Shown: positions 1,971 through 34,199 of the stretch, piece after piece
Layout: every line of letters begins with the position of its first letter
How positions within the stretch are numbered: the stretch's first letter is position 1
DNA from: Deltaproteobacteria bacterium
Lineage (GTDB): Bacteria > Desulfobacterota > Desulfobulbia > Desulfobulbales > Desulfurivibrionaceae
Direction: 5' to 3'
NCBI GenBank assembly: GCA_021811385.1
Contig: JAJZPC010000018.1
Location: 1-40,277, forward strand
Length of the DNA: 40,277 bases
Translations under genes and position numbers: made by a program
Notes under the pieces: generated by a model
The model's input: the letters and a program-made list of their open reading frames with translations, nothing else
What the model was told of the DNA's origin: nothing
The model's database searches: none

Positions 1971-2783
1971 TCAGCCCGGGGTGCGCCACCAGATCAGGGC
2001 CCATCGGGGCGGGGTCTGTCTGGCGAGTTGCCACCTTTCACCGATCCGGCTCAGGCGCGCATCCACGTAAGCGGTAAGCAGTTTTTCCTCATCGGCGGTC
2101 AGGTCATCCACCATCCAGCGGTACGATTGCAGGGCTTCTTCCCGGGAGGAATAGGTTCTTGTGCTGTCCAGGGTGAGGAAGTCGACCCGGGCGTGGATGC
2201 CCAGGGAGTAGAGGATATTGACCGTGAAGATATAATCCGGGCCGGGCTCGAACGTGCGGCCGATGGCTCTAAAAAGATCCGGGTCAAAAGGCCCGGCCCC
2301 GACCCGGTCCACCACGTAGACAGCCTTGCCGGCCCAATCGTTCAGCTTGCGCAACGCCCCTTTCAGGTCGTCCACCGACAGGGAGCGGGAGGCGATGGCC
2401 ACCTCGTGGCGGGGAATGGCGAGCGTTTGCCAGTCGTCGGTCCAGGAACCCTGGACGGTGGTGATGTTGTCCCGGCCCGCGGCCTTGGCCTGCTTTTCCA
2501 GTTCGGCCAGCATGGATGCGGAATAGTCGAGGGCCGTGACCCGCCGCACCTGGCCGGCCAAGGGGATGGCCAGGGTGCCGGGACCGCTGCCCACGTCGAG
2601 CACGCTCCACTCCGGCTCGACCTCGAGATGGGCGAGAAATTGGGCGACAAAGGGCGAATCGAGGTTGCGTTCGGCAAACCCGGCGGCCCGTTTGTCCCAG
2701 TCGCTGCTTTTTTTCTTTTTCCAGGACTTGCGGGCTCTGGATTCGAGCCACATGGTGTCCCAGTCGATATCCTGATAGCGCAT
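1971..2783 (-). CDS. Class I SAM-dependent methyltransferase, substrate unknown
   Basis: A Rossmann-type methyltransferase of 270 aa from the preferred start at 2783 (MRYQDIDWDTMW). SAM-binding motif I is VLDVGSGPGTLAIPLA, followed by the acidic strand end VTALDYSASML and a motif resembling post-I (NITTVQGSW). The N-terminus is lysine/tryptophan-rich (SRARKSWKKKKSSDWDKRAAGF), a feature of a family of uncharacterised anaerobe methyltransferases. An upstream in-frame ATG at 2873 would put the N-terminus inside a palindromic repeat and is less likely. The gene ends 81 bp before the mnmG start and has a separate promoter downstream of it. The methyl acceptor cannot be deduced from sequence. Confidence 0.8.
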   Translation of the reverse strand: MRYQDIDWDTMWLESRARKSWKKKKSSDWDKRAAGFAERNLDSPFVAQFLAHLEVEPEWSVLDVGSGPGTLAIPLAGQVRRVTALDYSASMLAELEKQAKAAGRDNITTVQGSWTDDWQTLAIPRHEVAIASRSLSVDDLKGALRKLNDWAGKAVYVVDRVGAGPFDPDLFRAIGRTFEPGPDYIFTVNILYSLGIHARVDFLTLDSTRTYSSREEALQSYRWMVDDLTADEEKLLTAYVDARLSRIGERWQLARQTPPRWALIWWRTPG

Positions 2784-2811
2784 GGCGTTGTTTAATAGTG
2801 AAAGATTGTTT

Positions 2812-2951
2812 GCCACGAACTCCACGAAAGGACACGAAATTTTTCGTAACAGGCCGGGCTGGGGCGGCGGCAACAGAAATGTTTTTCCTCTGTGGCGGGA
2901 GTGCCGAAAAAATGAAGCTTTATTTTCGTGTTCTTTCGTGGAGTTCGTGGC
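2812..2951. repeat. 140-bp intergenic inverted repeat, 28-bp arms
   Basis: Arms 2812-2839 and 2924-2951 are reverse complements over 28 bp with one mismatch; the motif CCACGAA recurs within each arm. About 84 bp separates the arms. It lies between two methyltransferase genes on the same strand and does not code. The tandem CACGAA-type arms resemble dispersed palindromic elements seen in many proteobacterial genomes. There is no transposase. Confidence 0.85.
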
Positions 2952-2962
2952 TAATTATCATC

Positions 2963-3670
2963 TCATTTTCGGCGGGTGAGCCGGTTGACGATGATGGTCA
3001 GCTCCTTGCCTTGGCTGCGCATCTTCCGGGTACTCACCGCTATCTCGTATTCCTTTTCCGCCAGCAGGAGGAATTTGGGCATGCTTTTGCGGCGGACATC
3101 GTGGGCCAGGTAGATGACGCCTTGGTCCGCCAAAAGCGAGCGGAAGATGTTCAGAAGCGGTGCGAAAAATTCTTCCCGAAAGAGGATCTCCGCGCCGATG
3201 ATGGTGTCGAAGCGCGGCAGGGTGGGTGGTTTCAGCCAGTCGAGCAGACGGCACTCAACGCCTTTGAGGCCGGTGGCCGCGGCGCTGACCCGTTGAAAAT
3301 CAAGGATGTGCGGTTCGTAATCGGTCAGGGTCACCCGGTAGCCTGCCAGGGCGGCGGCAAGACCCGGCGCGCCGAGGCCGGCGCCGAGTTCGAGCAGGGT
3401 CTGGTCCTCTTTTGTCGGTGGGGTGGTGAGCATGAGGTCGGCCAGGACCATGGCGGCTTCCCAGAGCTTTACCCAGAAGGGAAATTCTCCCACATCCTCG
3501 AAGGGGTCTTTCCCTCCCAGGAGCGGTTCGAGGTCCGTGACCTGGAGCAGCTGGATTTCCTTGCCGCGCAGGCGCAGGGGCTCGAAATCCACCTTGTAGT
3601 TTTTGCGGATTTCCCGGAGGCGGGCATACTGTTTTTCAGGGAGCTGGGCAGGATCCATCGAGGTCTCCAT
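2963..3670 (-). CDS. Class I methyltransferase of the METTL21/family-16 (protein lysine methyltransferase-like) type
   Basis: A 235-aa protein. After an N-terminal beta-strand region comes GEFPFWVKLWEAAMVLADLM (about residues 81-100), matching the FPYWAKLW-type signature that precedes SAM motif I in methyltransferase family 16. Motif I is LLELGAGLGAPGLAAAL, followed by VTLTDYEPHIL and the DWLKP segment. Eukaryotic members methylate protein lysines; bacterial substrates are mostly unknown, so the exact target is not called. The start at 3670 may be replaced by the internal Met at 3658. The gene lies 25 bp downstream of uppP on the same strand and is probably cotranscribed with it. Confidence 0.8.
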   Translation of the reverse strand: METSMDPAQLPEKQYARLREIRKNYKVDFEPLRLRGKEIQLLQVTDLEPLLGGKDPFEDVGEFPFWVKLWEAAMVLADLMLTTPPTKEDQTLLELGAGLGAPGLAAALAGYRVTLTDYEPHILDFQRVSAAATGLKGVECRLLDWLKPPTLPRFDTIIGAEILFREEFFAPLLNIFRSLLADQGVIYLAHDVRRKSMPKFLLLAEKEYEIAVSTRKMRSQGKELTIIVNRLTRRK

Positions 3671-5616: not shown

Positions 5617-6372
5617 TCAGGAGGGCATGTTGCCCTGGCGGAGACGCTCTCCCCGGGCGGAGATCACTACCTCCCGCACCGGAATGGTCTTGCCGGAGCG
5701 GGAAAGGGCCTGGGAAACAATGTGCCGCATGTTCCCGCAGCAGGGCACCTCCATGATGGCCATGGTGATGCTTTTGATCCCCGACGCGGCAAAGATCTCC
5801 GTGAACTTCTGGATAGCGCTTTCCGCCTCGTCGAATTTCGGGCAGCCCACCATGACCACCTTGCCGCTCAGGAGATCGCGGTGAAAATCCGGGTAGGCCA
5901 CGGGCACGCAGTCCGCCGCGATGAGGAGGTCGGCGCCTTTGAGAAAGGGCGCGCTGGGCGGCACCAACCGGATCTGCACCGGCCAGTGGCTCAGGGCCGA
6001 ACCGGTGGCCGGTCCGAGCTGAACCGGCGCATTGGCCGCCTGGCAAGGGGTGGCAGGGGCAAAGGTCTGCAAGCGTGCCGAGGGGCAGCCGCCGACGGGC
6101 GGGGCGGGTTGGGGTTTTGCCGTGTCCCGGTTTTTGAGCAGCTCTTCCACCGCCTCTTCGTCAAAATCATCCGCCTCCCGCTCGATGATGCGCAGAGCCC
6201 CGGTGGGGCACTCGCCCAGGCAGGCGCCCAAGCCGTCGCAGTACTTTTCCGCCAGCATCCGCGCCTTGCCGTCCACGATCCGCAGGGCGCCTTCCGCGCA
6301 GGCCGGCACGCACTCGCCGCAGCCGGTGCAGAGGTTTTCGTCTATCTCGATTATTTTACGCAGTATCTTCAT
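5617..6372 (-). CDS. Ferredoxin-like Fe-S protein of the hcp cluster
   Basis: A 251-aa protein from the ATG at 6372. The N-terminus has a complete [4Fe-4S] motif CTGCGECVPAC (Cys 15, 18, 21, 25). The second motif, CDGLGACLGECP, keeps Cys 45, 51 and 55 but has Leu at the position of the usual second cysteine, so it is either a 3-Cys site or uses a distant ligand. A proline-rich linker leads to a C-terminal domain with further cysteines (DCVPVAYP, VGCPKFDE, VPCCGNM). It lies 13 bp downstream of the HD-domain gene and two genes downstream of hcp, so it is a plausible electron donor to the hybrid-cluster protein. That role is inferred from context. Confidence 0.85.
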   Translation of the reverse strand: MKILRKIIEIDENLCTGCGECVPACAEGALRIVDGKARMLAEKYCDGLGACLGECPTGALRIIEREADDFDEEAVEELLKNRDTAKPQPAPPVGGCPSARLQTFAPATPCQAANAPVQLGPATGSALSHWPVQIRLVPPSAPFLKGADLLIAADCVPVAYPDFHRDLLSGKVVMVGCPKFDEAESAIQKFTEIFAASGIKSITMAIMEVPCCGNMRHIVSQALSRSGKTIPVREVVISARGERLRQGNMPS

Positions 6373-29716: not shown

Positions 29717-30412
29717 ATGATGCAAAAAAAACCAAAAGCGGTGGTGCTCTTGAGCGGCGGGCTTGATTCTGCCACGGTTCTGGCCATGGCCATGGCCGAG
29801 GGCTACGAGTGCTGCTGCCTCAGCTTTGCCTACGGCCAGCGCCAGCAAGTGGAGCTGGAGCGGGCTAAGGCCAATGTCGCCCGCAGGGGGATCGAAAAAC
29901 ACCTCATCCTTCGCCTCGATCTCGACGCCATCGGCGGCTCGGCCCTGACCACGGATACCGCCGTGCCCAAGGGCCGCAGTCAGGCGGAGATGAACGGTTC
30001 CATCCCCATCACCTACGTGCCGGGCCGCAACACCATCTTCCTCTCCTACGCCATGGCCTGGGCCGAGGTGCTGGGCGCGGGCGATGTGTTTCTCGGGGTC
30101 AATGTCATGGATTACAGCGGCTATCCCGACTGCCGCCCGGAGTTTCTCGAAGCCTTTGAGCGGGTGGCCAATCTGGCCACCAGGGCCGGGGTGGAAGGGG
30201 AGACCCGTTTCCGGGTCCATGCCCCGCTCCTCAAGCTGACCAAGAGGGAGATCATCGAAAAAGGGTTCGAGCTCGGGGTGGATTACGGCCTGACCCACAG
30301 CTGTTATGACCCGGACGCACAGGGGCGGGCCTGCGGGAGTTGCGACAGCTGCCTGTTGCGGCTCAAGGGGTTTGCCGAGGCCGGGCGGGTTGATCCGGTG
30401 GAGTATCAGTGA
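29717..30412 (+). CDS. queC: 7-cyano-7-deazaguanine synthase QueC
   Basis: A 231-aa ATP-dependent enzyme converting 7-carboxy-7-deazaguanine to preQ0 in queuosine synthesis. The PP-loop motif [14 protein letters not shown] lies at residues 13-26. The conserved [20 protein letters not shown] and [16 protein letters not shown] follow. The C-terminal zinc site is formed by cysteines in [20 protein letters not shown]. No other queuosine genes are adjacent. Tandem ATG codons at 29717 and 29720 are possible starts after AGGAGA. Confidence 0.97.
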
Positions 30413-30435
30413 TAATGCATAATGAAGAGGGCACA

Positions 30436-31431
30436 ATGAAGAATGCATTGGGCGGGTTGTTCATGGTCGGCCTGCCAGGGACGGAGCTGGATGATTCCAC
30501 CCGCGACCTTATTAATAGGTATGGGATCAATAATTTCATCCTCTTCAAGAGAAACGCCGAGAATCCGGAGCAGATTCGCACCCTCTGTCTTGGGCTGGCT
30601 GATGCCTGCCGCGCGGCCGGGCTGGGTGCGCCGCTGATCTCCATCGATCAGGAGGGCGGCACCGTGGCCCGGCTCAAGGCGCCCCATTTCACCGAGTTTC
30701 CCGATGCCAGGGCGCTGGCGGAGAGTGAGCGGGCAGAGGAGTTGCTGACTGACTATGCCCGCACCTGCGCCAAGGAATTATTGGCGGTGGGGATCAATAT
30801 GAATCTGGCCCCGGTGTTGGATGTGAGCCCGGCCGGGCTGGGGTTGTTCATGGAAAGGCGAGCCCTGGGCGGGACGCCGGAGCAGGTGGCCCGGCTGGGC
30901 GCGCTGGTGATTACGACCATGCAGGATAACGGCTTGGCTGCCTGCGCCAAGCATTTTCCCGGATTGGGCGGAGCAACTCTGGACCCCCACAAGGTGCTGC
31001 CCGTGGTGGATCGCTCGCTCGAAGAGCTGCGCGGCTGCGATCTGGTGCCGTTTGTCGAGGCGATCCGGGCGGGAGTGGCCGGGGTGATGACCTCGCATAC
31101 CGTGTATCCGCAGCTTGATTCCGAGTTCCCCGCCACTCTGTCGCCGCGGATTTTGGGCGGAGTGCTCCGCGATGAGCTGGGATATGATGGGATGGTGGTT
31201 ACCGACGATCTGGAGATGGGGGCCATTGAGAATGAAGGCACGGTGGCGGATGCGGCGCTCACCTCATTTTTGGCCGGGGCGGATATGCTGTTGATCTGCC
31301 AAGAGCACTCGAAGATTATTGCGGCCCATGAATTATTGAGTAAGGCGGTGGGCGGGGTGGTTTCCGGGGAGAGGGTGCGGAGGTCGCTGGAGAGGATTGG
31401 TGTGGTGCGGAGGCGGTTTGCTGGGGTTTGA
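30436..31431 (+). CDS. nagZ: Beta-N-acetylhexosaminidase NagZ-type (glycoside hydrolase family 3)
   Basis: A 331-aa cytoplasmic enzyme that removes GlcNAc from muropeptides during cell-wall recycling. Substrate-binding DQEGG is at residues 71-75, the KHFPGLG motif at 172-178 with H185 nearby as the general acid/base dyad loop, and the nucleophile aspartate in VVTDDLEMGAI (257/258). The family-typical second domain is absent, as in proteobacterial NagZ. The ATG at 30436 follows GAGG by 5 nt; an in-frame GTG at 30409 overlaps queC but is less likely. It ends 60 bp before the cassette core site. Confidence 0.93.
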   Translation: MKNALGGLFMVGLPGTELDDSTRDLINRYGINNFILFKRNAENPEQIRTLCLGLADACRAAGLGAPLISIDQEGGTVARLKAPHFTEFPDARALAESERAEELLTDYARTCAKELLAVGINMNLAPVLDVSPAGLGLFMERRALGGTPEQVARLGALVITTMQDNGLAACAKHFPGLGGATLDPHKVLPVVDRSLEELRGCDLVPFVEAIRAGVAGVMTSHTVYPQLDSEFPATLSPRILGGVLRDELGYDGMVVTDDLEMGAIENEGTVADAALTSFLAGADMLLICQEHSKIIAAHELLSKAVGGVVSGERVRRSLERIGVVRRRFAGV

Positions 31432-31490
31432 GGGATGGGATTTTGTGCATATTTCCGGCTATCATGATAGCTAGGTCCGTAGGATAACTT

Positions 31491-31497
31491 GTTAGGC
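31491..31497 (+). other. Integron-type core site GTTAGGC at the start of cassette 1
   Basis: GTTAGGC fits the GTTRRRY core cut by integron integrases between G and T. The cassette would begin TTAGGC at 31492. Its complement matches the R'' box GCCTAAT of the attC at 32115-32121 in six positions, as expected for the two ends of one cassette. No full attC or attI could be folded on the nagZ side, although a palindrome GCTATCA/TGATAGC lies nearby. Confidence 0.6.
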
Positions 31498-31541
31498 CGC
31501 ACTCACCGGCACCGATCACTTGTACGAAACAGGACTTCAAG

Positions 31542-32120
31542 ATGAAAACAGTACGAACATCGGTAGAGGCATGGTCACGTGAAGATCTTGTGCGCGCCGC
31601 GATAGCGATGATGAAGATCGCCGGTTGGTCGCTGGCTCTCATTTGGGCTGCCTACCTAGTTCGATTTACCTCAATTCTTGGTCCGTTTCATACGTTTCTA
31701 TTTGGCTCTGAGACACCCGACCAGATCGCGAATGCGAAGGCAGCATGGGGCCAATTCGGCGATTTTGTGGGAGGCACGCTTAATCCGCTAGTGAGTCTGC
31801 TTGCCTTGGTCGGCTTGGTGTTCACCATCTTGCTGCAGCATGAGGCGATGATGCGTGTTCAAAAAGATGCCGCAGCTAGCCAAAAGGCGCTCTCGGATCA
31901 AACGCGGCTGTCACTTGAAGCTGCTAGGCTTCAGTCATTGGCAGCCGCCCTCGAAGTGACTACAGAAATGCATCGCCAAGCTGTCGCAGTCAGCCACATT
32001 TCGGTAATAGATCTTTTGAGGCGGAAGGAAAATATTGCGGACCAAATCCTTGAGATCAATGAGCGGCTGGCAAGGCAGACACAAGCAACGGATGAGGAAG
32101 CTGCGACAGGTGCGGCCTAA
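31542..32120 (+). CDS. Cassette 1: two-TM coiled-coil protein resembling the N-terminus of phage abortive-infection (putAbiC-like) proteins
   Basis: A 192-aa protein. Two membrane segments are visible, at about residues 24-45 (MKIAGWSLALIWAAYLVRF) and 83-102. The second is preceded by AWGQFGDFVGGTLNPLVSLL, a motif typical of putative phage abortive-infection proteins (PF16872-like) and related two-TM proteins. A coiled coil follows (ALSDQTRLSLEAARLQSLAA), and the protein stops without the large C-terminal domain of full-length members. AGGA lies 7 nt before the ATG. The stop codon TAA lies inside the R'' box of the attC, a common cassette feature. Function as a defence protein is inferred from resemblance only. 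Confidence 0.7.
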   Translation: MKTVRTSVEAWSREDLVRAAIAMMKIAGWSLALIWAAYLVRFTSILGPFHTFLFGSETPDQIANAKAAWGQFGDFVGGTLNPLVSLLALVGLVFTILLQHEAMMRVQKDAAASQKALSDQTRLSLEAARLQSLAAALEVTTEMHRQAVAVSHISVIDLLRRKENIADQILEINERLARQTQATDEEAATGAA

Positions 32121-32183
32121 TCATTCAATCGAGAAGGCGCACCCCGGCAAGCCGGGTCACGCCTCTCATTTCAAACGTTGAAC
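32115..32183 (+). other. attC recombination site (59-base element) of cassette 1
   Basis: Boxes in order: R'' GCCTAAT (32115-32121), L'' GAGAAGGCG (32131-32139), a central hairpin CCCGGC-AA-GCCGGG (32143-32156), L' CGCCTCTC (32160-32167) and R' GTTGAAC (32177-32183, fits GTTRRRY). L'' and L' pair with one unpaired extrahelical base, the feature that sets strand choice by integron integrases. Total length is 69 bp, within the normal range. The unpaired spacers CATTCAATC and ATTTCAAAC flank the inner boxes as expected. Confidence 0.85.
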
Positions 32184-32193
32184 GAGGATGACC

Positions 32194-33162
32194 ATGATGA
32201 ATCGAGAGCGATTCATTTATTTTATGCAGAATGGAGAGAAGGGGCCAATAAAAATAGGTCTCGCTTTTGACGTGCAGCGGAGATTGGCTCAAGCTCAGAC
32301 ATTTAATTACCAAGCAATTACCCTTCTCGGACACATCCCTGGTGATCAACGGCTTGAAACGGCTCTTTTGAAAAGGTTTTTTCCATATCACCTCTTGGGT
32401 GAGTGGTTCGCGTTTAATGACGAACTATACAATCTCGCAAGGGGCGTTTTCGATGTAGAGTATGAAAAGTATGGCGATAGAAATTATTTGGTACTTTATC
32501 GACAGACCACCGAATCTATGACCGATCCTTGCCCGTTCTGCCTGGCATCACATAGTCATGGAATCGGTGATGGACATCGAGTAGAGCACTGTCTCCCCCA
32601 ACACGGTCGATCCTCGATACTTACAACTGACGGCACATCCCTTTATCGCGATCACGGGTATATCATAAAGACCCGTGATCCAGACGGACCACCTCCAAAA
32701 GAACCAAGATGCAACCGAGTGAGTGAGGTTCGGCTCCGAGTTTTCGCAAATTTACTAACATTTGCCACGAACAAGTTTATTGAATCTAATATTTTTTCTG
32801 TCGATCCAGCAACGATCCCGCCGAAAGGTGGCGTAGAACTTCTTGTAAAATATCCTGATGGGACACCATGTAAGATACGATGCAATGACGCAGGGTATGG
32901 TGAAGTCGGAATAAATATACTTTACGGGATAAAGAGCGCCGACCCTCCTGTGTACACTTTCGTGTCCAGACAATCCAAAGAAATATGTTCTGCTCATGCG
33001 GCTGGCTGGCTTGAGCGCAGGGTAGGGAAATATCTTCAGATACCGGCTGAGTCGACATCCATTGAGCTTTATTGTGCAAAGCATGTTTGTAAGCAACTCG
33101 CAGAGCGAGAAATTCAGCCAATTGCGGATTCGTTCAAGAAGCAAGGTCCATTTCATCTTTAA
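32194..33162 (+). CDS. Cassette 2: GIY-YIG (MUG113/T5orf172-like) nuclease-domain protein
   Basis: A 322-aa protein. Residues 6-80 fit the GIY-YIG fold of the MUG113/T5orf172 group: RFIYFMQNGEKGPIKIGLAF (the GIY and YIG equivalents), an RR pair, and GDQRLETALLKRFFPYHLLG with the glutamate. A zinc-binding-like region follows (CPFCLASHSH, then GHRVEHCLPQHG). The C-terminal 150 residues are not recognised. GAGG lies 6 nt before the ATG at 32194; 32188 and 32197 are alternatives. Base composition is visibly richer in A+T than in flanking genes, suggesting foreign origin. It begins right after the attC at 32115-32183. Confidence 0.75.
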   Translation: MMNRERFIYFMQNGEKGPIKIGLAFDVQRRLAQAQTFNYQAITLLGHIPGDQRLETALLKRFFPYHLLGEWFAFNDELYNLARGVFDVEYEKYGDRNYLVLYRQTTESMTDPCPFCLASHSHGIGDGHRVEHCLPQHGRSSILTTDGTSLYRDHGYIIKTRDPDGPPPKEPRCNRVSEVRLRVFANLLTFATNKFIESNIFSVDPATIPPKGGVELLVKYPDGTPCKIRCNDAGYGEVGINILYGIKSADPPVYTFVSRQSKEICSAHAAGWLERRVGKYLQIPAESTSIELYCAKHVCKQLAEREIQPIADSFKKQGPFHL

Positions 33163-33263
33163 ATGATTGCAGACTTAAAGCGATAAATAGGGAAATTGGG
33201 ACGGATTTATTATTCTGATTACCAAGCAATCTTATCAATCAGGGTAATGGGCTTCATCCTTCT

Positions 33264-33298
33264 GTTCTTTTTCTTTTGCTTGCCCAAAGAAAAAGAAC
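33264..33298. repeat. 13-bp perfect inverted repeat, A/T-rich
   Basis: GTTCTTTTTCTTT (33264-33276) and AAAGAAAAAGAAC (33286-33298) with the 9-nt loop TGCTTGCCC. Similar TTTTGCTTGCCC-AAAG palindromes are widespread as intergenic repeats in proteobacteria. It sits in a gene-free stretch (33163-33570) between the cassette gene and the toxin-antitoxin pair. Confidence 0.85.
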
Positions 33299-33463
33299 CA
33301 AAAAGAAAAGGCACCCAGCCACTTGTCCCGCCGCAGGCGGGATGCCCTGTGCTCCTCGGCGGAAAAGAAACGAAAAAAGAAACGGAAGAAACAGAAACGG
33401 GGTCGGACCAAGGCAACTGATTGATTTGACAGAAGAAGGGTATGAAAGATTGGCTGTATTTCG

Positions 33464-33504
33464 CCTCAAAAGCCCATTTTGATGGCCAAAATGGGCTTTT
33501 GAGG
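33464..33504. repeat. 17-bp perfect inverted repeat
   Basis: CCTCAAAAGCCCATTTT (33464-33480) and AAAATGGGCTTTTGAGG (33488-33504), 7-nt spacer. It lies about 65 bp downstream of the antitoxin stop on the minus strand and may serve as a bidirectional terminator or be a dispersed repeat. A smaller hairpin CTGCGG/CCGCAG (33516-33531) follows. Confidence 0.85.
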
Positions 33505-33570
33505 GGGGCACTTCCTGCGGGCAAGCCGCAGATGTTCTTGTTATGCGCAATGGGAGTGTTATCGTTGGGC

Positions 33571-33867
33571 CTATCCCCGGTCGGGAACAATGGCAAGTTT
33601 GAGTCCGAGCCCATGGATGATGTTGTGGAAGGTGCGCAGTTCCGGGTTTCCTTTTCTGGACAGGGTGCGGTAGAGGTTTTCCCGTTTGATGTGCGCCCGT
33701 TCGGCAACGGCGGTCATGCCGCCCATGGCCTGGGCCACCCGGCGCATGGCCAACAAGAGCGCGTCGCGGTCGTCTTCGTCGATGGCGGCGGTGAGGTATC
33801 CGGCGGCAAATTCTGGGTCTTTGAGCAGTTCGTTCAGGTCTTTTTCGTAATCGGTCATGGTGTGCAT
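33571..33867 (-). CDS. HigA-like antitoxin (HI1420-type addiction module antidote)
   Basis: A 98-aa protein with the HI1420 family layout. An acidic N-terminus (DYEKDLNELLKDPEFAAGYL) leads to a helix-turn-helix (MGGMTAVAERAHIKRENLYR) and then a C-terminal segment (NPELRTFHNIIHGLGLKLAI). It should bind and neutralise the toxin encoded just upstream and repress the operon. AGGAG lies 8 nt before the ATG at 33867, giving a 13-bp overlap with the toxin; the Met at 33858 would give an ATGA overlap instead. Confidence 0.92.
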   Translation of the reverse strand: MHTMTDYEKDLNELLKDPEFAAGYLTAAIDEDDRDALLLAMRRVAQAMGGMTAVAERAHIKRENLYRTLSRKGNPELRTFHNIIHGLGLKLAIVPDRG

Positions 33868-34199
33868 CGCTGTTTCTCCTGATGATCTTTCCAGTACACC
33901 TTGGCGGTTTCTATGTCTCGTTCCTGCGTGCTCTTGTCGCCGCCGACCAACAACAGCACCACCCGGTCGCCGTCGTGGGCATAGTACACACGATAGCCAG
34001 GACCATGGGGGATGCGCAATTCCATCACGCCGGAGCCAACGCCCTTGTGGTCGCCAAGATTGCCGACGGCAACCCGGTCAAGCCTCGCGGCAATGCGCTG
34101 CATGGCGGCACGGTCGCGCAGGGAGAGAAACCAGTCCCGGAAAGGCTTTTTTCCGTGCGGATCGGTGTAGTAGGTGAGCTGGCGCGGAATGGCTTGCAT
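33855..34199 (-). CDS. HigB/RelE-superfamily toxin (HI1419-type)
   Basis: A 114-aa protein of the phage-derived Gp49-like/HigB group. It has DPHGKKPFRDWFLSLRDRAA near the start, RIAARLDRVAVGNLGDHKGV in the middle, then MELRIPHGPGYRVYYAHDGD and LLVGGDKSTQERDIETAKVY, all hallmarks of this family of mRNA interferases. The toxin gene precedes the antitoxin gene, the HigBA order. The pair stabilises nearby DNA or responds to stress or phage in other bacteria. Both genes read leftward, opposite to the cassette genes. Confidence 0.92.
   Translation of the reverse strand: MQAIPRQLTYYTDPHGKKPFRDWFLSLRDRAAMQRIAARLDRVAVGNLGDHKGVGSGVMELRIPHGPGYRVYYAHDGDRVVLLLVGGDKSTQERDIETAKVYWKDHQEKQRCTP

Follow-up and report, generated by a model that had tools for sequence, protein, structure and literature searches.

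The window, by which we mean the whole stretch of 40,277 bp analysed here, carries a short run of integron-type inserts directly behind the host gene nagZ. The features of this part of the window are as follows.

30409–31431, plus strand: nagZ, encoding a beta-N-acetylhexosaminidase (Pfam Glyco_hydro_3, 1e-67; NCBIfam PRK05337, 229 bits against a cut-off of 207).
31443–31497, plus strand: putative solo attI, directly 3' of the nagZ stop (similarity by nhmmer and by position weight matrix, PWM).
31492–32177, plus strand: gene cassette 1, 686 bp, TTAGGCCG ... CGGCCTAA, including its attC up to the G of R' (8-base end match and fold).
31542–32120, plus strand: cassette gene 1 (ORF1), 192 aa.
32115–32183, plus strand: attC, 69 bp (covariance model R2 and folds; box limits set by eye), consisting of R'' (32115–32121), a spacer, L'', a central hairpin, L' (32160–32170), a spacer (32171–32176) and R' (32177–32183).
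32178–33184, plus strand: insert 2, a probable cassette 2, starting TTGAAC; its right limit is given by the conserved downstream block, which begins at about 33185 in relatives.
32188–33162, plus strand: cassette gene 2 (ORF2), 324 aa (Pfam domain matches).
33571–34199, minus strand: a pair of RelE/HigB-type toxin (33855–34199) and antidote (33571–33867), over cut-off for NCBIfam TIGR02683 and TIGR02684.

The nagZ gene overlaps the upstream queC, its 3' end forms the border of the attI site, and the order sfsA–queC–nagZ recurs in stretches of eight congeners. Both cassette genes run in the same direction as queC–nagZ; a consensus scan of the plus strand of 30300–33700 gave no sigma-70-like match. 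No match to Rfam at gathering scores and no tRNA (ARAGORN) was found in the window. The toxin–antidote pair lies downstream of the cassettes and outside them; both genes are present at the equivalent place in the congener G006, and the antidote alone in G016. A block (...TTGCTTGCCCAAAGAAAAAGAACC...) at 33230–33350 recurs behind the nagZ inserts of several congeners and looks like a dispersed short repeat.

ORF1 has two hydrophobic segments (about residues 16–37 and 75–104, by hydropathy) and has no counterpart in Pfam or PADLOC, nor one in NCBIfam that exceeds its cut-off. Searched by tblastn, it aligns with part of a Vibrio alginolyticus protein labelled 'putative phage abortive infection protein' (34.5% over residues 20–137); a viral contig is also similar (40% over 110 residues). 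An anti-phage role would be a guess. Matches to ORF1 occur in 5 of the 193 genomes of the order, its own included, and the other four are weak. ORF2 carries an N-terminal T5orf172/MUG113 domain (residues 9–79; Pfam MUG113 4.8e-6 and T5orf172 2.2e-4, both over cut-off), which we take to be GIY-YIG-like. ORF2 found no relatives in viral contigs and one weak match in plasmids, and the insert searched as DNA matched no plasmid. As a separate observation, the Vibrio alginolyticus relative of ORF1 stands behind an attC-like site (threshold 10.5) in a plasmid cassette-like array (L215:2337–2462 and 2477–3331).

The ends of cassette 1 speak for an integron origin. GTTAGGC, which the earlier note had placed at 31491, occupies 31491–31497, and the boxes of the 69-bp site were found as described there (R'' GCCTAAT at 32115–32121 and R' GTTGAAC at 32177–32183), with the stop codon of ORF1 (TAA, 32118–32120) indeed within R''. 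The proposed complementarity of the two ends reaches two bases further than had been claimed: the cassette start TTAGGCCG (31492) is complementary at 8 of 8 bases to the cassette end CGGCCTAA (ending at 32120), 624 bp apart. Cassette 1 thus has the complementary ends of an integron gene cassette; this evidence covers cassette 1, and cassette 2 is only a probable cassette. The note had also seen one extrahelical base in the site. Unpaired bases are present in L'', but there are two (top-strand C32130 and A32134, by eye), because the pairing of AAT-C-GAG-A-AGGCG with the opposite CGCCT-CTC-ATT leaves two bases over. Two extrahelical bases are typical of attC sites.

Folding of the bottom strand agrees with this assignment. 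In the integrated form the site folds at -15.5 kcal/mol (z -3.95), and 0 of 200 dinucleotide shuffles were as low; the outer boxes are unpaired in this form because R' there is part of the next cassette. When the circle form is assembled in silico (32115–32177 joined to 31492–31497), the bottom strand becomes one continuous R/L/L/R hairpin of -17.3 kcal/mol in which both outer and inner boxes are paired, a value that 0 of 500 mononucleotide shuffles reached.

Covariance models were trained on attC sites from the integron arrays of relatives, the window being left out. Model R2 (36 rows from a search with R1, a few of them the wrong strand of a site) scores the window attC at 21.2 bits (E 0.0043), its sole match in the 40-kb window up to E 10. 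Model R1, built from 20 trimmed attC sites and without a trained loop, reaches 19.7 bits (E 0.16; 282 kb, 31 sources); with filters off the site scores 9.0 bits and ranks third in the window (E 6.1), and in a scan of its own genome at E <= 5 it is absent among the 150 of 872 candidates scored. A custom structure scorer places it first of two candidates in the window (12.4 versus 10.8). Scores of this size also arise by chance. A small control of 201 kb, in which one strand of each of five shuffles was read, gave four matches of at least 10.5, two of them at 12.3–12.4 and both of these with a 6-base partner; a large control, with 60 shuffles read on both strands (4.8 Mb), yielded 13 matches of at least 12.4, or about 0.2 per window, of which two had a 6-base partner and none an 8-base partner. 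The folded attC alone is modest evidence, because shuffled controls also reach its structure score; structure and 8-base end match together are convincing. It is an attC of the ordinary kind, if somewhat divergent, and much of the case for it lies in the end match. Nothing convincing was found as an attC at the right end of insert 2, where GTTCAAG (33132) and GATAAAT (near 33180), considered as a decayed attC of cassette 2, had no model support. A first de novo attC scan lacking a stem rule was discarded as far too loose, and alignment A1, misaligned in its 3' half, was left out of model building.

The DNA in front of the first cassette (31443–31494) reads as an attI that lacks an integrase gene, and its crossover is expected to fall between G31491 and T31492. 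Congeners have a conserved element of about 55 bp behind nagZ, which ends in ...GAATAACTTG/TT (the slash marking the crossover). The genus comprises 17 genomes and 16 nagZ loci, as G009 gave no nagZ match; the element is clear at 6 of the 16 (the window, G004, G005, G006, G007 and G016), and G010 and G011 show it in degenerate form. An nhmmer search with the profile of the six species, in which the window is itself a training row, gives the window attI 48 bits. The core lies 59, 65, 69, 70, 72 and 73 bp behind the nagZ stop in the six species (59 bp in the window), so that all six share one arrangement. The element also occurs in G008 and G014 (40 and 44.7 bits), on contigs other than those of their nagZ genes.

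In G023:C46, G025:C118, G056:C16 and G006:C6 the same core is found upstream of intI and on the strand opposite to it, the expected place of an attI. A 24-nt PWM built from these four intI-linked sites scores 31471–31494 at 17.1, the highest value among 80,506 window positions (the next is 10.4), and the other five nagZ sites at 11.5 to 27.5, with G004 lowest at 11.5; the test is partly circular because three of the four training sites (G023, G025 and G056) were found through a pattern drawn from the nagZ sites. A 16-nt attI pattern at up to two mismatches proved too short, as forward and reversed-control counts were similar among the matches listed; its matches were kept only near intI or with support from the longer profile. 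By sequence similarity, then, the site corresponds to the attI of a complete integron. GTTAGGC at 31491 ends this conserved attI, and the locus would therefore be a capture site, more than a cassette boundary or a stray cluster.

The cargo behind this constant border changes from species to species. With insert limits set by hand, the six nagZ inserts comprise five different contents: those of G005 and G007 are alike (91.7% over 592 bp), and the inserts otherwise have no mutual match at E 1e-3, as DNA or as protein. The block behind the inserts is common to several congeners. A locus in which nagZ and both cassette genes are always contiguous, which would have spoken against the cassette reading, is not what the relatives hold: ORF1 had no match at E <= 0.001 in the 16 other genomes of the genus, and ORF2 was found, among the 17, in its own genome only. 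An exact end match of 6 to 8 bases at a plausible place occurs only in the window among the six nagZ sites. In G016 the model gives one attC-like match (18.2 bits, E 0.35), with cassette ends that disagree, and a second one with agreeing ends was recognised by eye; the attC of G007 is weak (13.9 bits, E 3.3), and R1 gave no match near the nagZ site in G004, G005 or G006. In a 16-row nagZ tree, three changes are required to explain the site (17 of 500 shuffles were as low), several deep forks being uncertain, and the pattern is as might be expected for an old site lost several times.

The claim that no integrase accompanies the cassettes holds for their surroundings: none lies beside them or in the window, and the window's contig (C29) as a whole gave no IntI match, so that an adjacent intI, as in a complete integron, is lacking. 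It does not hold for the genome, which carries an IntI on contig C50 (368 bits, cut-off 265). The intact frame at C50:24003–24950 is the sole IntI over cut-off in this MAG, which is 75% complete; other matches lie on C45, C63, C94 and C97. C50 is a prophage-like contig, and the IntI is flanked there by portal and terminase genes. An attI-like site and cassettes of its own accompany it; that attI is dissimilar to the nagZ site, and the C50 IntI may or may not serve the latter. The small integron concerned (L009:13979–16915, that is G000:C50:23979–26915, between the portal and large terminase genes) has three attC sites of 33.6–45.3 bits, all three of which trained R1, and a weak fourth of 14.0; its four cassette genes are oriented against the attC sites, along with the phage genes. 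Phage-borne integrons are already known (PMC9892861). Elsewhere in the same MAG, another attC (G000:C84:42061–42117, L153:1501–1557; 31.8 bits) lies behind small genes that by eye resemble a HicAB pair; the cassette after it starts TTATGCGC, and GCGCATAA follows about 0.65 kb further on.

The earlier note called arrays of the CALIN type rarely described in Desulfobacterota, which needs correcting, as integrons are common here: IntI over cut-off is present in 34 of 58 genomes, the window's own included, and integrons in this phylum are mentioned in PMC9668308. Among the species with the nagZ site, G006 has an IntI with a matching attI on another contig, and three of the six have no IntI over cut-off (G007, at 95% completeness, G004 and G005). 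Two IntI frames over cut-off (G006:C10:86427–87356 and G015:C9:330562–331491) contain one in-frame TGA each.

Two lineages show intI lost while attI has stayed: G021 and G012 keep an attI beside an intI stub. In G023 the order is ispG–intI–attI, with attC following (C46). In the congener G021 about 1.3 kb between ispG and attI, corresponding to intI in G023, is missing. G021 retains ispG (88% over 1100 bp), 62 bp from the 5' part of intI and the attI flank (83% over 162 bp), and its genome has no IntI over cut-off. In the stretch of G012:C48 examined, the match is to intI residues 1–45 only, about 220 bp before its attI.

We consider it probable that the nagZ locus is an integrase-less, or solo, attI filled with integron cassettes by an IntI acting in trans, with probable expression by read-through. 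On this account intI at nagZ would have been lost or never present. An IntI supplied by another integron of the cell, by a prophage or by an incoming element would recombine the folded bottom strand of attC with the G/TT core of attI, and the captured genes would probably be transcribed from queC–nagZ. Loading by an integrase from elsewhere is suggested because the docking site is shared by sister species whose genes there differ. That cassettes were exchanged after intI was lost, or without its ever having been present at nagZ, we infer as the most economical reading.

It is unlikely, though by no means negligible, that the locus is instead a fossil, in which a full integron once stood behind nagZ, each lineage lost intI separately after filling, and the remains are static. 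The stubs in G021 and G012 show that such loss occurs, cassette 2 has no recognisable attC, the site is degenerate in G010 and G011, and half of the six species lack an IntI over cut-off. Separate deletions, however, would hardly yield a nagZ-to-core interval that is colinear in six species within 59–73 bp, and so short an interval leaves little space for a remnant of intI. Integron integrases also use secondary sites. Insertion by IntI into a chance site of the kind named attG in PMC12901181, the likeness to attI being coincidental, is a much more improbable explanation, as six species conserve a stretch of about 55 bp, which is found again elsewhere in G008 and G014, and the core is common to intI-linked attI sites. 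We give hardly any credence to the view that there is no integron here and that a hairpin and repeats arose by chance between nagZ and mscS: two model runs give the attC modest scores and such structure scores arise at about 0.2 per window (more often in the smaller control), but none of the 13 shuffled matches has the 8-base end match, the circle form gives a full hairpin, and at the other end there are an attI and species-specific inserts.

The preferred reading, a solo attI loaded in trans, makes the locus a variant of an already known arrangement, a CALIN with its own attI. The earlier note was right that integron cassettes with an attC and no neighbouring integrase are present, as the ends of cassette 1, its structure and the R2 score attest. 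Its label CALIN calls for at least two attC sites without intI; R2 recognises one in the window up to E 10, and the locus is a SALIN, the current term for a single attC without integrase (PMC9229058). Integrase-less cassettes are common in genomes (PMC9668308). Like CALIN and SALIN elements, the nagZ locus has attC cassettes without an adjacent intI; it differs in that its inserts start at a conserved attI common to several species, with only one attC recognisable. The closest parallel is the Shewanella prophage M16-3, described in PMC9892861 as a CALIN with its own attI. There a Shewanella-type attI opens the integrase-less array and the genome also holds a complete integron, as here, but that attI is a second copy within one prophage, whereas the nagZ site is chromosomal and holds different cargo in six species. 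In Treponema phagedenis intI was lost and attC sites and cassettes were left, a remnant that PMC3607928 calls static; in contrast, the nagZ site keeps its attI, and its inserts differ between species. The integron of G023:C46 has a closely similar attI core (CAGAAACCACAGAATAACTTG/TTA), with intI present there and absent at nagZ.

A docking site that stays constant in six species as its cargo changes argues that cassette traffic survives the lack of a neighbouring integrase. The nagZ site and its intI-linked sister sites make up a defined system for testing capture in trans. Searches for intI and attC alone would overlook such attI sites, empty ones included.

More tentatively, with the chances somewhat against it, solo attI sites might be a distinct class. 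They would be landing pads without an integrase, kept behind housekeeping genes in Desulfobacterota and perhaps further phyla; a single integrase specificity, shared among them, would serve them in trans, and host operons would take the place of Pc. If this is true, an integron would be dispersed over the genome, with several docking sites in each. When GTDB contigs were scanned for exact matches to the pattern, 54 stretches with 55 sites came back; Desulfobacterota (Desulfopila aestuarii among them) and Candidatus Scalindua are named in many of the titles, and some others look like chance. The longer ATACAGA start is present at 31 sites, 28 of which have at least 1.2 kb of upstream DNA. intI lies upstream of six of these (115–442 bp, opposite strand) and of none of the remaining 22, some of which may be chance matches; an attC-like site follows downstream in 8 of the 22, and cassette ends match the core (6-base rule) in 4. 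Outside the 31 sites, L205 has intI, and L182 and L185 have an intI stub.

An inverted repeat, TCTGTATATC-N14-GATATACAGA, directly precedes the attI core in six stretches in which no intI was found (L159, L178, L184, L196, L203 and L206). A repeat score of at least 8 is reached by 6 of the 22 sites without intI (two from one MAG), by 0 of the 6 with intI and by 47 of 1000 random 73-mers; the score is 5 at the window site and ranges from 5 to 9 at the remaining nagZ sites. The repeat is not exclusive to sites lacking intI, because the intI-linked G025 site, outside the 28, also scores 8. One possibility is that it gives the integrase, or some other protein, a further place to bind. In L173, a stretch of a Desulfobacteraceae MAG in which no intI was found, two attI-like sites lie 1.1 kb apart on the reverse strand, with cores at 5934 and 7071.
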